Shown here piece by piece: positions 1,263 through 4,506 of a stretch of DNA of 64,000 nt (the first letter of the stretch is position 1; each line of letters begins with the position of its first letter). The position numbers were made by a program, and so were the translations under genes. The notes beneath the pieces were generated by a model. That model saw only the letters and a program-made list of their open reading frames with translations, did no database searches and was not told the origin of the DNA. The stretch is from Sulfurihydrogenibium azorense Az-Fu1. GTDB taxonomy: Bacteria > Aquificota > Aquificia > Aquificales > Hydrogenothermaceae. The stretch is from the NCBI RefSeq assembly GCF_000021545.1, contig NC_012438.1, positions 558,001 to 622,000 of the forward strand, written 5' to 3'.

Positions 1263-1294
1263 TTTTGACAGGTATAAAGAATAGGGGGACGCAC

Positions 1295-2023
1295 ATGAAA
1301 GTGTTAAAAAAGATTATAGGCATTTTTATGAGTTCTGCAATACTCATAATGCCATCAGTTGCAGAAGCAAAAACAAAAAAAATAGAAAAAAAACACAGTA
1401 AAAGTATCAGTGTAAAACATAAAAGTTTAGATAAAATCTCAAAACACTCGAGACATTCAAAACACTCCAAAAAAAGTTTAAAAGTCAAAAAAGTTTCTTA
1501 CTCCTACGGGCCAAGAGTTTACGGGGATGATTTAGAACCTAACAGAGATATCTACAAGTATGCAATAGGATTGTTAGGTACTAGATATACTTTTGGTGGA
1601 GAAAGTATAAATGGTATAGATTGTTCTTCTTTTGTCCAACACGTTTTTGAACTTGCTGGTTATAAAATGCCAAGAACTGCAAGAGAGCAAGCACTCTACG
1701 GCTATTTTGTAAGAAGAGAAAATATCAAACCCGGAGACCTTCTATTTTTTGCAACCTATGCCAGTTATCCTTCCCACGTAGGAATATACATAGGAAATGG
1801 AAAAATGATCCATGCTTCATCACGAGGAGGAAAAGTTGAGATCACAGATATAAATCAAGACTACTATATAAAGAGATTTTTATTTGCAAAAAGAATACCT
1901 GCAAATATGAAAGAACTTGTACCACAAGATTCAATAGAAAGTATAGAAGAATATATCTCTGAAAATTCTAAGAAAGAAGACCCTATAGCAAAAATTATAA
2001 AGGAAAAAGATGGAAAAAATTAG
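1295..2023 (+). CDS. NlpC/P60 family secreted peptidoglycan endopeptidase
   Basis: A cysteine peptidase predicted to cut peptide cross-links in the cell wall. From ATG 1295, which follows an AGGGGG ribosome site, the product has 242 residues. It has an N-terminal hydrophobic signal sequence (MKVLKK then IIGIFMSSAILIMPSVAEA), a stretch of about 45 residues very rich in Lys, His and Ser, and then the catalytic domain. The catalytic Cys is C110 in GIDCSSFVQHVF and the His is H161 in SHVGIYIGNGKMIHAS. A start at TTG 1265 is possible in frame but would put charged residues before the signal. The basic linker may bind wall polymers. The 3' end overlaps hslV by 14 bases. Confidence 0.85.
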   Translation: MKVLKKIIGIFMSSAILIMPSVAEAKTKKIEKKHSKSISVKHKSLDKISKHSRHSKHSKKSLKVKKVSYSYGPRVYGDDLEPNRDIYKYAIGLLGTRYTFGGESINGIDCSSFVQHVFELAGYKMPRTAREQALYGYFVRRENIKPGDLLFFATYASYPSHVGIYIGNGKMIHASSRGGKVEITDINQDYYIKRFLFAKRIPANMKELVPQDSIESIEEYISENSKKEDPIAKIIKEKDGKN

Positions 2024-2546
2024 AAGTACAACTATATTAGTTGTCCGTAGAAACGGTAAGACCGTTATGGCAGGAGACGGGCAAGTTACACTTGGATCTT
2101 CTGTAATGAAGCAAACAGCCAAAAAAGTTAGGAAGTTAAACGAAGGAAGAGTAGTTGTAGGATTTGCAGGCAGTGCAGCTGATGGACTGGCACTTATGGA
2201 GAGACTTGAAGAAAAGTTAAACAAACACAGAGGAAATCTAATAAGAGCATCTGTAGAACTTGCAAAAGACTGGAGACTTGATAAATACTTGAGAAGATTA
2301 GAAGCTGTTATGATTGCAGCTGATAAGGAGAATATACTGCTTTTGTCTGGAAATGGAGATGTTATAGAGCCGGATGAACCGGTTTTGGCTATTGGGTCAG
2401 GAGGAGATTATGCAAGGTCTGCTGCACTTGCACTTTATAGAAATACAGATTTAGATGCAAGAAAGATAGTAGAAGAGGCTATGAAGATAGCTGGCGAGAT
2501 TTGTATATACACAAACACAAACTTTATTATTGAAGAGATAGAATAA
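2010..2546 (+). CDS. hslV: ATP-dependent protease subunit HslV (ClpQ)
   Basis: HslV is the proteolytic dodecamer of the HslUV protease and works with the HslU ATPase, which is not in this window. The 178-residue sequence has the N-terminal-nucleophile motif TTILVVRRNG, with the putative catalytic Thr at residue 7 after removal of a short propeptide, followed by MAGDGQVTLG, GFAGSAADGLAL and AIGSGGDYARSAA. These match the family along its whole length. It overlaps the preceding gene by 14 bases and is followed 8 bases later by priA, so the three genes probably form one transcript. Confidence 0.95.
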   Translation: MEKIRSTTILVVRRNGKTVMAGDGQVTLGSSVMKQTAKKVRKLNEGRVVVGFAGSAADGLALMERLEEKLNKHRGNLIRASVELAKDWRLDKYLRRLEAVMIAADKENILLLSGNGDVIEPDEPVLAIGSGGDYARSAALALYRNTDLDARKIVEEAMKIAGEICIYTNTNFIIEEIE

Positions 2547-2553
2547 AACAATC

Positions 2554-4506
2554 TTGGAAGAAATTTTTGTAGAAGTTGCAGTTCCTGTTCCTCTTTTTAA
2601 CACTTTTGTCTATAGAATACCTTTACACTTAAATAAAGCAGATTTAATAGGTAGAAAAGTAAAGGTTCCTTTTAAATCAACAAAACATTACGGAATAATA
2701 TTAGGTGTTAAAAATCAGCCTGATTTTTCAAAGGTAAAAGATGTATTTTCAGTAGAGGATAAAGTTTTCACGGAAAAAGAGATAAATATAATAAAAAATC
2801 TTTCAGAATTTTACATTTCTCCAATAGGTTTAACAGTTGACTACTTTGTTCCAAACAAAATAAGAGAAAAAAACATAAAAGACCCTTTTATAGGAAAACT
2901 CTTTTTCTTAAAGGAAAATTCCCAAGTAAAAAAGTTAACCCACAAACAAAAAGAGTTATTGGAATTACTATACGAAAGAGATTATCTAACCTACGAAGAC
3001 CTAAAAGAGTTAGGTTTTGATAGAAAAACTATTAAATCTTTGGTAGATAAAGGGATAGTAGAAGTAAAAGAAGGTCTAAGTATATTAAAAGACTCTTTAG
3101 TTTTGTCTAGTTATAAGGAAGATTACGAAAGTATCAACACTTTAAAAAACAAAATCTACCTTTTTGATGAGTTTTATCCGGAAAAAAGACTAAACTACTA
3201 CTTGCAGCTTACACAAAAAATAAAAAATGGTAGTATCCATATTATCCTTCCTTCAGTTGAACTTTGTAATATTTACTATGAGATATTTTCAAGAAGATTT
3301 AAGAATGTATATGTTTACAACGACTCAATCTCTCCTTCTACTCAATGGCAGGTTTGGAAAAAGGCAATGGAACAAAACGTAATACTTATAGGAACGGTCT
3401 CTTCTGCAGTTATACCAATAAAAAACCAGAAAATCTTAATCGTAGAAGAAGAAGATTCAAAAGTCTATAAATCAAAAAGAACTCCTAAAATAGATATTAA
3501 AAGAGTTGCATACTATATTAATAAAGAGAAAGGTATACCTGTTATTTTTGCTTCATCTATTCCATCTTTAGAAAGTTTTTTATCCTTACAAAAAAAACAG
3601 ATTATACATTTAAATAACAAACCTAAAATTAATTCAGCTAACATCCAAATCATCCCCCATAAAAATATTAATAGTGATTTGCTTGTAATAAAGGACCTTA
3701 TCACAAAAAGTAGAAGCTGTCTAATTGTTGCAAATAAAAGTTATTACTCAAGTTTAGTTGTATGTGAGAGGTGTGGTTGGCAGGCTATTTGTCAAAAGTG
3801 TGGATATCATCTAAACGTCCATTTGAAAGAAGGGAAAAAATATTTAGAGTGTGGAAGGTGTAAAACAAAGTATGAATACACTCCTTTATGTCCTGAGTGT
3901 GATTTTAAAACTACAGAAACAGGGTTTGGAAAGGAAAAAGTGGAAGTTTTTTTAAAAAAATCTCTTCCAGTTGAGTTTTGGAATAAGTTTAAAGTTGTGA
4001 GTAGTTTGGAGCTAAAAACTTTAAGTGTAGGGAAGTTTGAAACTGTTATAAATCTTTATCCGGACTTTATTTTAGATTTTCCAGATTTTAGGTCAGAGTA
4101 TGAGTTTTTTAAAAAAGTGATGATTCCTATAACCGTTTGTGAAAAAAATTATGTTGCAATAACTAATCAAGAAGAAGAGTTAAAAAGGTTTAACTTTGAT
4201 GTTTATAAATTTTTAACTTGGGAGTTGAAAAAGAGGGAAAGACTTAACCTTCCACCGTTTATAAAAGTTATAAAGTTAGAGATATTTACAAAAAATCTAA
4301 AAGGTTCAATAGTTTCTAACTATGTAGAAGAGTTTTTTAAAAATTTAAAAATTATTAAAAAATCAGTCCTTGACAACTATCTTATGTACATATTTGAGTA
4401 TAAAAATGAAGAAGATAAGAAAATATTTAAAGATTTTTATGAAAAAACACTTAAAAAGTCAAATATTAAAATAACAATAGAAGTAAACCCAAGTAATTTT
4501 CAGTAG
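2554..4506 (+). CDS. priA: PriA-like primosomal protein with degenerate helicase motifs
   Basis: The 650-residue protein is collinear with the replication-restart helicase PriA. It has an N-terminal 3'-DNA-binding domain (VEVAVPVPLFNTFVYRIP), a helicase-like core, and the eight-Cys zinc-binding segment (CERCGW, CQKCGY, CGRCKT, CPEC) around residues 407-450. The start is TTG 2554. The catalytic motifs are eroded. The segment where GVTGSGKTE (Walker A) is expected reads LFDEFYPEKR. The DEEHD box reads EEEDS, and GSATPSLES reads ASSIPSLES. The zinc module and the terminal RLNLPPF element remain. It therefore probably binds forks and loads the primosome without unwinding DNA. The PriA identity is firm; loss of ATPase is inferred. 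Confidence 0.88.
   Translation: MEEIFVEVAVPVPLFNTFVYRIPLHLNKADLIGRKVKVPFKSTKHYGIILGVKNQPDFSKVKDVFSVEDKVFTEKEINIIKNLSEFYISPIGLTVDYFVPNKIREKNIKDPFIGKLFFLKENSQVKKLTHKQKELLELLYERDYLTYEDLKELGFDRKTIKSLVDKGIVEVKEGLSILKDSLVLSSYKEDYESINTLKNKIYLFDEFYPEKRLNYYLQLTQKIKNGSIHIILPSVELCNIYYEIFSRRFKNVYVYNDSISPSTQWQVWKKAMEQNVILIGTVSSAVIPIKNQKILIVEEEDSKVYKSKRTPKIDIKRVAYYINKEKGIPVIFASSIPSLESFLSLQKKQIIHLNNKPKINSANIQIIPHKNINSDLLVIKDLITKSRSCLIVANKSYYSSLVVCERCGWQAICQKCGYHLNVHLKEGKKYLECGRCKTKYEYTPLCPECDFKTTETGFGKEKVEVFLKKSLPVEFWNKFKVVSSLELKTLSVGKFETVINLYPDFILDFPDFRSEYEFFKKVMIPITVCEKNYVAITNQEEELKRFNFDVYKFLTWELKKRERLNLPPFIKVIKLEIFTKNLKGSIVSNYVEEFFKNLKIIKKSVLDNYLMYIFEYKNEEDKKIFKDFYEKTLKKSNIKITIEVNPSNFQ

Follow-up and report, generated by a model that had tools for sequence, protein, structure and literature searches.

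The window analyzed here, a stretch of 64,000 nucleotides from the single-contig genome of the hot-spring bacterium Sulfurihydrogenibium azorense Az-Fu1 (1,640,877 bases), encodes a PriA protein in a reading frame that starts 7 bases past the stop codon of hslV (Table 1). The gene order NlpC/P60–hslV–priA (1265-4506) was kept in most members of the S. azorense family of PriA proteins (below, f1), and recG and an NAD kinase gene were found upstream in the nearest genera. The recG gene of S. azorense starts 336 bases ahead of the window.

Several searches identified the protein as PriA. Its top NCBIfam matches were all models of primosomal protein N'/PriA, including PRK05580, at scores far under their cut-offs; the equivalog cut-off of TIGR00595 was likewise not reached (136 bits vs. 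230). The protein matched solved PriA chains in the PDB (phmmer, 4e-26) and the Pfam family PriA_3primeBD (PF17764, 2e-17). Homology extends over the whole length, and the PriA domain order, 3'-DNA-binding domain (3'BD), WH, helicase domain 1 (HD1), helicase domain 2 (HD2) enclosing the cysteine-rich region (CRR), and C-terminal domain (CTD), is shared with E. coli PriA. The positions of E. coli F16 and K61 in the 3'BD are occupied by F and K/R in most f1 members. The nearest named public relatives found are from Sulfurihydrogenibium MAGs (61% identity). When the genome was searched with the TIGR00595 profile no second PriA was found; among the other, weak matches one was RecG, and the remainder were much weaker and lay in frames of other sizes.

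Table 1. The S. azorense priA gene, its parts and its upstream neighbor (positions in the window).
Feature	Position	Strand	Basis
hslV, upstream neighbor (context rather than mechanism)	2010..2546	+	
priA, 650 aa, TTG start	2554..4506	+	ORF, Pfam, NCBIfam, phmmer
3'-DNA-binding domain, residues 7-100	2572..2853	+	PF17764, 2e-17
Degenerate helicase domain 1, about residues 191-370	3124..3663	+	
Erased Walker A, EFYPEKRL, residues 206-213	3169..3192	+	alignment with E. coli K-12 PriA
R212 at the Walker lysine position	3187-3189	+	
Erased motif II/Walker B, EEEDS; E298 at the aspartate position	3445..3459	+	
Former aromatic-rich loop, PKIDIKR for WRYHARD	3484..3504	+	
Erased motif III, ASSIP, residues 333-337	3550..3564	+	
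Cysteine-rich zinc domain, 8 cysteines, C404-C449	3763..3900	+	
Helicase domain 2, second half, about 20-30 residues shorter than in E. coli	3904..4158	+	
Erased motif V site	3997-4020	+	alignment
Erased motif VI site	4123-4146	+	alignment
C-terminal domain, about residues 536-650	4159..4503	+	

Alignment with E. coli K-12 PriA, our reference for the motifs, revealed that the S. azorense protein has none of the signatures of an active SF2 helicase (Walker A, DEEH, SAT, and motifs V and VI). Walker A is changed from GVTGSGKT to EFYPEKRL, motif II from DEEHD to EEEDS (from residue 298), motif III from GSATP to ASSIP, motif V from GTQMLAKG to VSSLELKT, and motif VI from QVAGRAGR to IPITVCEK, and the aromatic-rich loop WRYHARD is replaced by PKIDIKR. 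No AAA+ domain or ATPase motif was matched in the protein by Pfam or NCBIfam. The initial annotation had described the erasure of Walker A, DEEHD, and motif III, with the zinc cysteines and N-terminal domain retained. The alignment and the PF17764 match bore this out, and the loss proved to be wider than first noted, as motifs V and VI are erased too. All eight zinc cysteines are present, and they are invariant across f1.

Motif Loss across the Aquificota

Of 136 genomes searched in the phylum, 126 contained a relative. Motifs were counted in 90 extracted proteins, some of the drafts being partial: 33 in f1, 34 in f2, 6 in f3, 2 in f4, and 15 in f5. The helicase motifs are absent from every one of the 75 proteins in f1–f4, that of Aquifex aeolicus (f2) included, and present in all 15 of the Desulfurobacteriaceae-like f5 (L079–L093), whose genomes we take to be those of Desulfurobacterium and Thermovibrio. 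TIGR00595 scores ranged from 442 to 535 bits in f5 and did not exceed about 238 in the other families; by these scores no intact PriA was seen elsewhere in the other motif-less genomes. Chance or a sequencing fault is ruled out as the source of the S. azorense sequence because the same state was observed in all f1 members examined (33/33). The initial annotation had named one mutated strain among intact close relatives as the outcome that would overturn its reading, and when we looked for such relatives there were none in f1–f4; the loss is lineage-wide. In some drafts (L118 and L120; genomes G085 and G094) the priA frame is interrupted by a stop or frame shift, probably through assembly faults.

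In a maximum-likelihood tree, which came from a quick search and needs caution, f1–f4 formed one clade beside f5 (SH-aLRT 99). That tree requires one change for the motif loss, in agreement with the taxonomy, and most simply the loss would have been one ancestral event. The f5 proteins are the nearest relatives with recognizable helicase motifs (I, II, III, V, and VI) and, unlike S. azorense PriA, they have a full-length HD2. The interval from the last zinc cysteine to motif VI is about 20–30 residues shorter in f1–f3 than the 101 residues of E. coli, f4, and f5. The f5 motifs themselves are altered: Walker A reads GSGKM in 15/15, with methionine for the threonine at the Mg-coordinating position, and motif II reads DEEQD rather than DEEHD in 14/15, whereas motif I of the outgroup PriAs was always GSGKT wherever the pattern was detected. 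This threonine-to-methionine change may mark the first step of motif loss, and the f5 PriAs are possibly already impaired.

One of the f2 genomes is that of A. aeolicus, its DnaC matching PDB 3ECC over the whole chain (402 bits). Its PriA (L158:2008-4044, minus strand) has eroded motifs and no match to the Pfam PriA domains, and in the Aquificaceae the 3'BD is no longer recognized by Pfam. PriA has been scored as absent from A. aeolicus (PMC1193525), which the failure of the Pfam models to match may explain. This cryptic PriA corrects the record that Aquifex lacks the protein.

Predicted Structure and Restart Partners

An AlphaFold2 model of S. azorense PriA, made with 21 sequences (pLDDT 85.5, pTM 0.79), had as its best structural match 8fak_H, E. 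coli PriA in the PriA–PriB–fork complex (Z 29.5, 3.1 Å over 561 residues). Residues 4–649 of the model align to 8fak, and the PriA fold is retained in the model. In 8fak the zinc domain is swung, forming a pore for the lagging-strand ssDNA (PMC10175261). The model lay 9.6 Å from the ADP-bound structure 4nl4 over 566 residues. For comparison, a model of the intact PriA L131, made with its CTD masked, lay 6.0 Å from 8fak over 532 residues and 4.7 Å from 4nl4 over 587. A preference of the S. azorense protein for the fork-bound conformation is suggestive only, because the L131 control lacked this preference but had its CTD masked.

The genome encodes a DnaC/DnaI-type loader of 239 aa with its own Walker A (G000:C1:889474-890193) and an SSB with the C-terminal end DEDVPF. 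Searches of the genome with family models did not find PriC, DnaT, DnaD/DnaB_2, or DciA, partners that could escape such models if very diverged. No PriB was seen with these models either, since the one protein matched as an SSB fold was the SSB. A second intact helicase, which the initial annotation had suggested looking for, is present in the form of RecG and a PcrA/UvrD-family helicase; the particular candidate PriA2 is absent. This gene content is the basis on which we infer a partnership of PriA with DnaC in S. azorense.

Alternative Explanations and the Proposed Role of PriA

The loss of otherwise strongly conserved motifs could be taken as a sign of a decaying pseudogene, or of a mutation in a single strain. 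This was rejected, and we give it practically no credence: the frame is open over 650 codons, the 75 proteins of four families are alike, and dN/dS against the closest relative (82% identity) is 0.10 overall, a value that argues against a pseudogene, and 0.077 in HD1. In the zinc domain it is 0.025, with dS near saturation. PriA has at the same time diverged rapidly, with a cross-genus identity of about 33–38% as opposed to about 80–85% for HslV, and its divergence is also high relative to RecG. This fast evolution compared with that of its neighbors could mean a changed job, and PriA might have left replication restart altogether, for example for a structural DNA- or RNA-binding function. The unrecognizable 3'BD of the Aquificaceae and the missing PriB, PriC, DnaT, DnaD, and DciA are consistent with such a move. 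However, we consider it improbable, as the whole PriA architecture is kept (residues 4-649), the zinc cysteines are invariant in what is the sole PriA of the genome, and a DnaC/DnaI-type loader and SSB are encoded with it.

The former ATP site bears on a further alternative. Throughout f1 the Walker lysine is replaced by arginine (33/33) and the Walker B aspartate by glutamate (33/33); f3 has R/E in 4/6 and R/D in one, and f2 and f4 have uncharged residues or gaps at the two sites. A salt bridge formed by the fixed pair Arg212 and Glu298 may replace the Mg-ATP network, holding domain 1 together, and is made plausible by the two positions changing together, though the independent events are few. 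The same residues could instead belong to an unusual pocket (Arg212, Glu298-Glu300) in which PriA binds ATP or another nucleotide as a switch, perhaps with slow hydrolysis. Such a pocket would fit the invariance of both residues in f1 and the conservation of the erased Walker A stretch, where the nearest species share 95% identity over 21 codons. Against it, none of the glycines, the lysine, or the threonine of the P-loop is left, the charged pair is lost too in the Aquificaceae and f4, and the single change K230R abolishes the ATPase of E. coli PriA (PMC4504706). We think a nucleotide switch quite improbable.

In our judgment S. azorense PriA is probably a pseudohelicase that recognizes forks but has no ATP motor. 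By sequence it fits that description, having lost the catalytic motifs while its other parts persist under selection. The initial annotation had proposed an ATPase-free fork-binding loader in this lineage. An ATPase-free PriA does appear to be fixed there, as is well supported by the phylum-wide loss, the single loss on the tree, the purifying selection, the predicted fold, and the lack of a second PriA. "Loader" is an overstatement, and PriA is more likely a fork-recognition scaffold, because the genome encodes the AAA+ loader, of the DnaC/DnaI type and complete with a Walker A, as another protein. Under this proposal, abandoned forks and D-loops would be bound via the 3'BD and a channel formed by the zinc domain, HD2, and the CTD. 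The fork-bound scaffold would then help DnaC to place DnaB, without unwinding, and any removal of the lagging strand would be left to another helicase, with RecG or PcrA/UvrD as candidates.

A more detailed joint reading is that the Aquificales have a reduced restart kit, consisting of a motorless PriA scaffold and DnaC, without PriB, PriC, DnaT, DnaD, or DciA. PriA would from the outset have the fork-bound shape with its pore formed, which E. coli PriA adopts only when it is on DNA. An Arg-Glu pair would take the place of ATP, and the protein would have eroded stepwise from the Walker Thr-to-Met state still found in the Desulfurobacteriaceae. Taken as a whole, this reading is speculative and rather unlikely.

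PriA pseudohelicases are already known as a kind. D. radiodurans PriA is without ATPase and helicase activity, yet binds forks and DnaB (PMC4504706). It shares with S. azorense PriA defective Walker A and B motifs, including the Lys-to-Arg change, and the retention of the other parts. Its ATPase-dead, fork- and DnaB-binding nature was determined by experiment. As described in PMC4504706, motifs I and II are poorly matched in the PriAs of Deinococcus-Thermus, whereas S. azorense PriA no longer has any of motifs I, II, III, V, and VI; compared with that description, the S. azorense protein, from another phylum, also has a shortened HD2 and an Arg paired with a fixed Glu. The Aquificota loss appears to be separate from, and more complete than, that in D. 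radiodurans, and what distinguishes it would be how completely the motifs are erased, together with the shorter HD2 and the Arg/Glu pair. Wild-type E. coli PriA has intact motifs and the partners PriB, DnaT, and PriC, none of which were found in the S. azorense genome. Its ATPase is unneeded for PriA–PriB restart in vivo (PMC10175261), restart works without ATPase in K230R and K230A mutants (PMC4504706, PMC10175261), and K230A proteins were used for DnaB loading assays (PMC10175261).

The actinobacterial PriA (NCBIfam PRK14873) is not known to have the helicase motifs and is, like that of S. azorense, divergent. It has been described as smaller and very divergent (PMC1193525). Membership of S. 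azorense PriA in the actinobacterial-type branch was not supported, in that it scored 157 bits with the PRK05580 PriA models vs. 44 bits with the PRK14873 models, and the tree grouped it with the Desulfurobacteriaceae-like PriA among the sequences tried.

In a literature search with partial coverage of subscription journals, we came across no description of PriA motif loss in the Aquificota, nor any biochemistry or genetics of an Aquificota PriA. Nearly all bacteria have a PriA with helicase activity, yet E. coli can do without that activity, which raises the question of the purpose of the motor. The near phylum-wide natural loss, beside an apparently motif-bearing sister family, is a natural experiment on that purpose, and Aquificota PriA with DnaC could be a simple, heat-stable system for the study of restart. 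Our data also advise caution in automatic annotation, by which some motif-less PriAs are called helicases. Five motif-less proteins (L018, L022, L023, L024, and L027, from genomes G077, G093, G089, G092, and G083, respectively) scored 233-238 bits, above the TIGR00595 cut-off of 230, and would be labeled helicases; the cut-off therefore fails to separate the two states.
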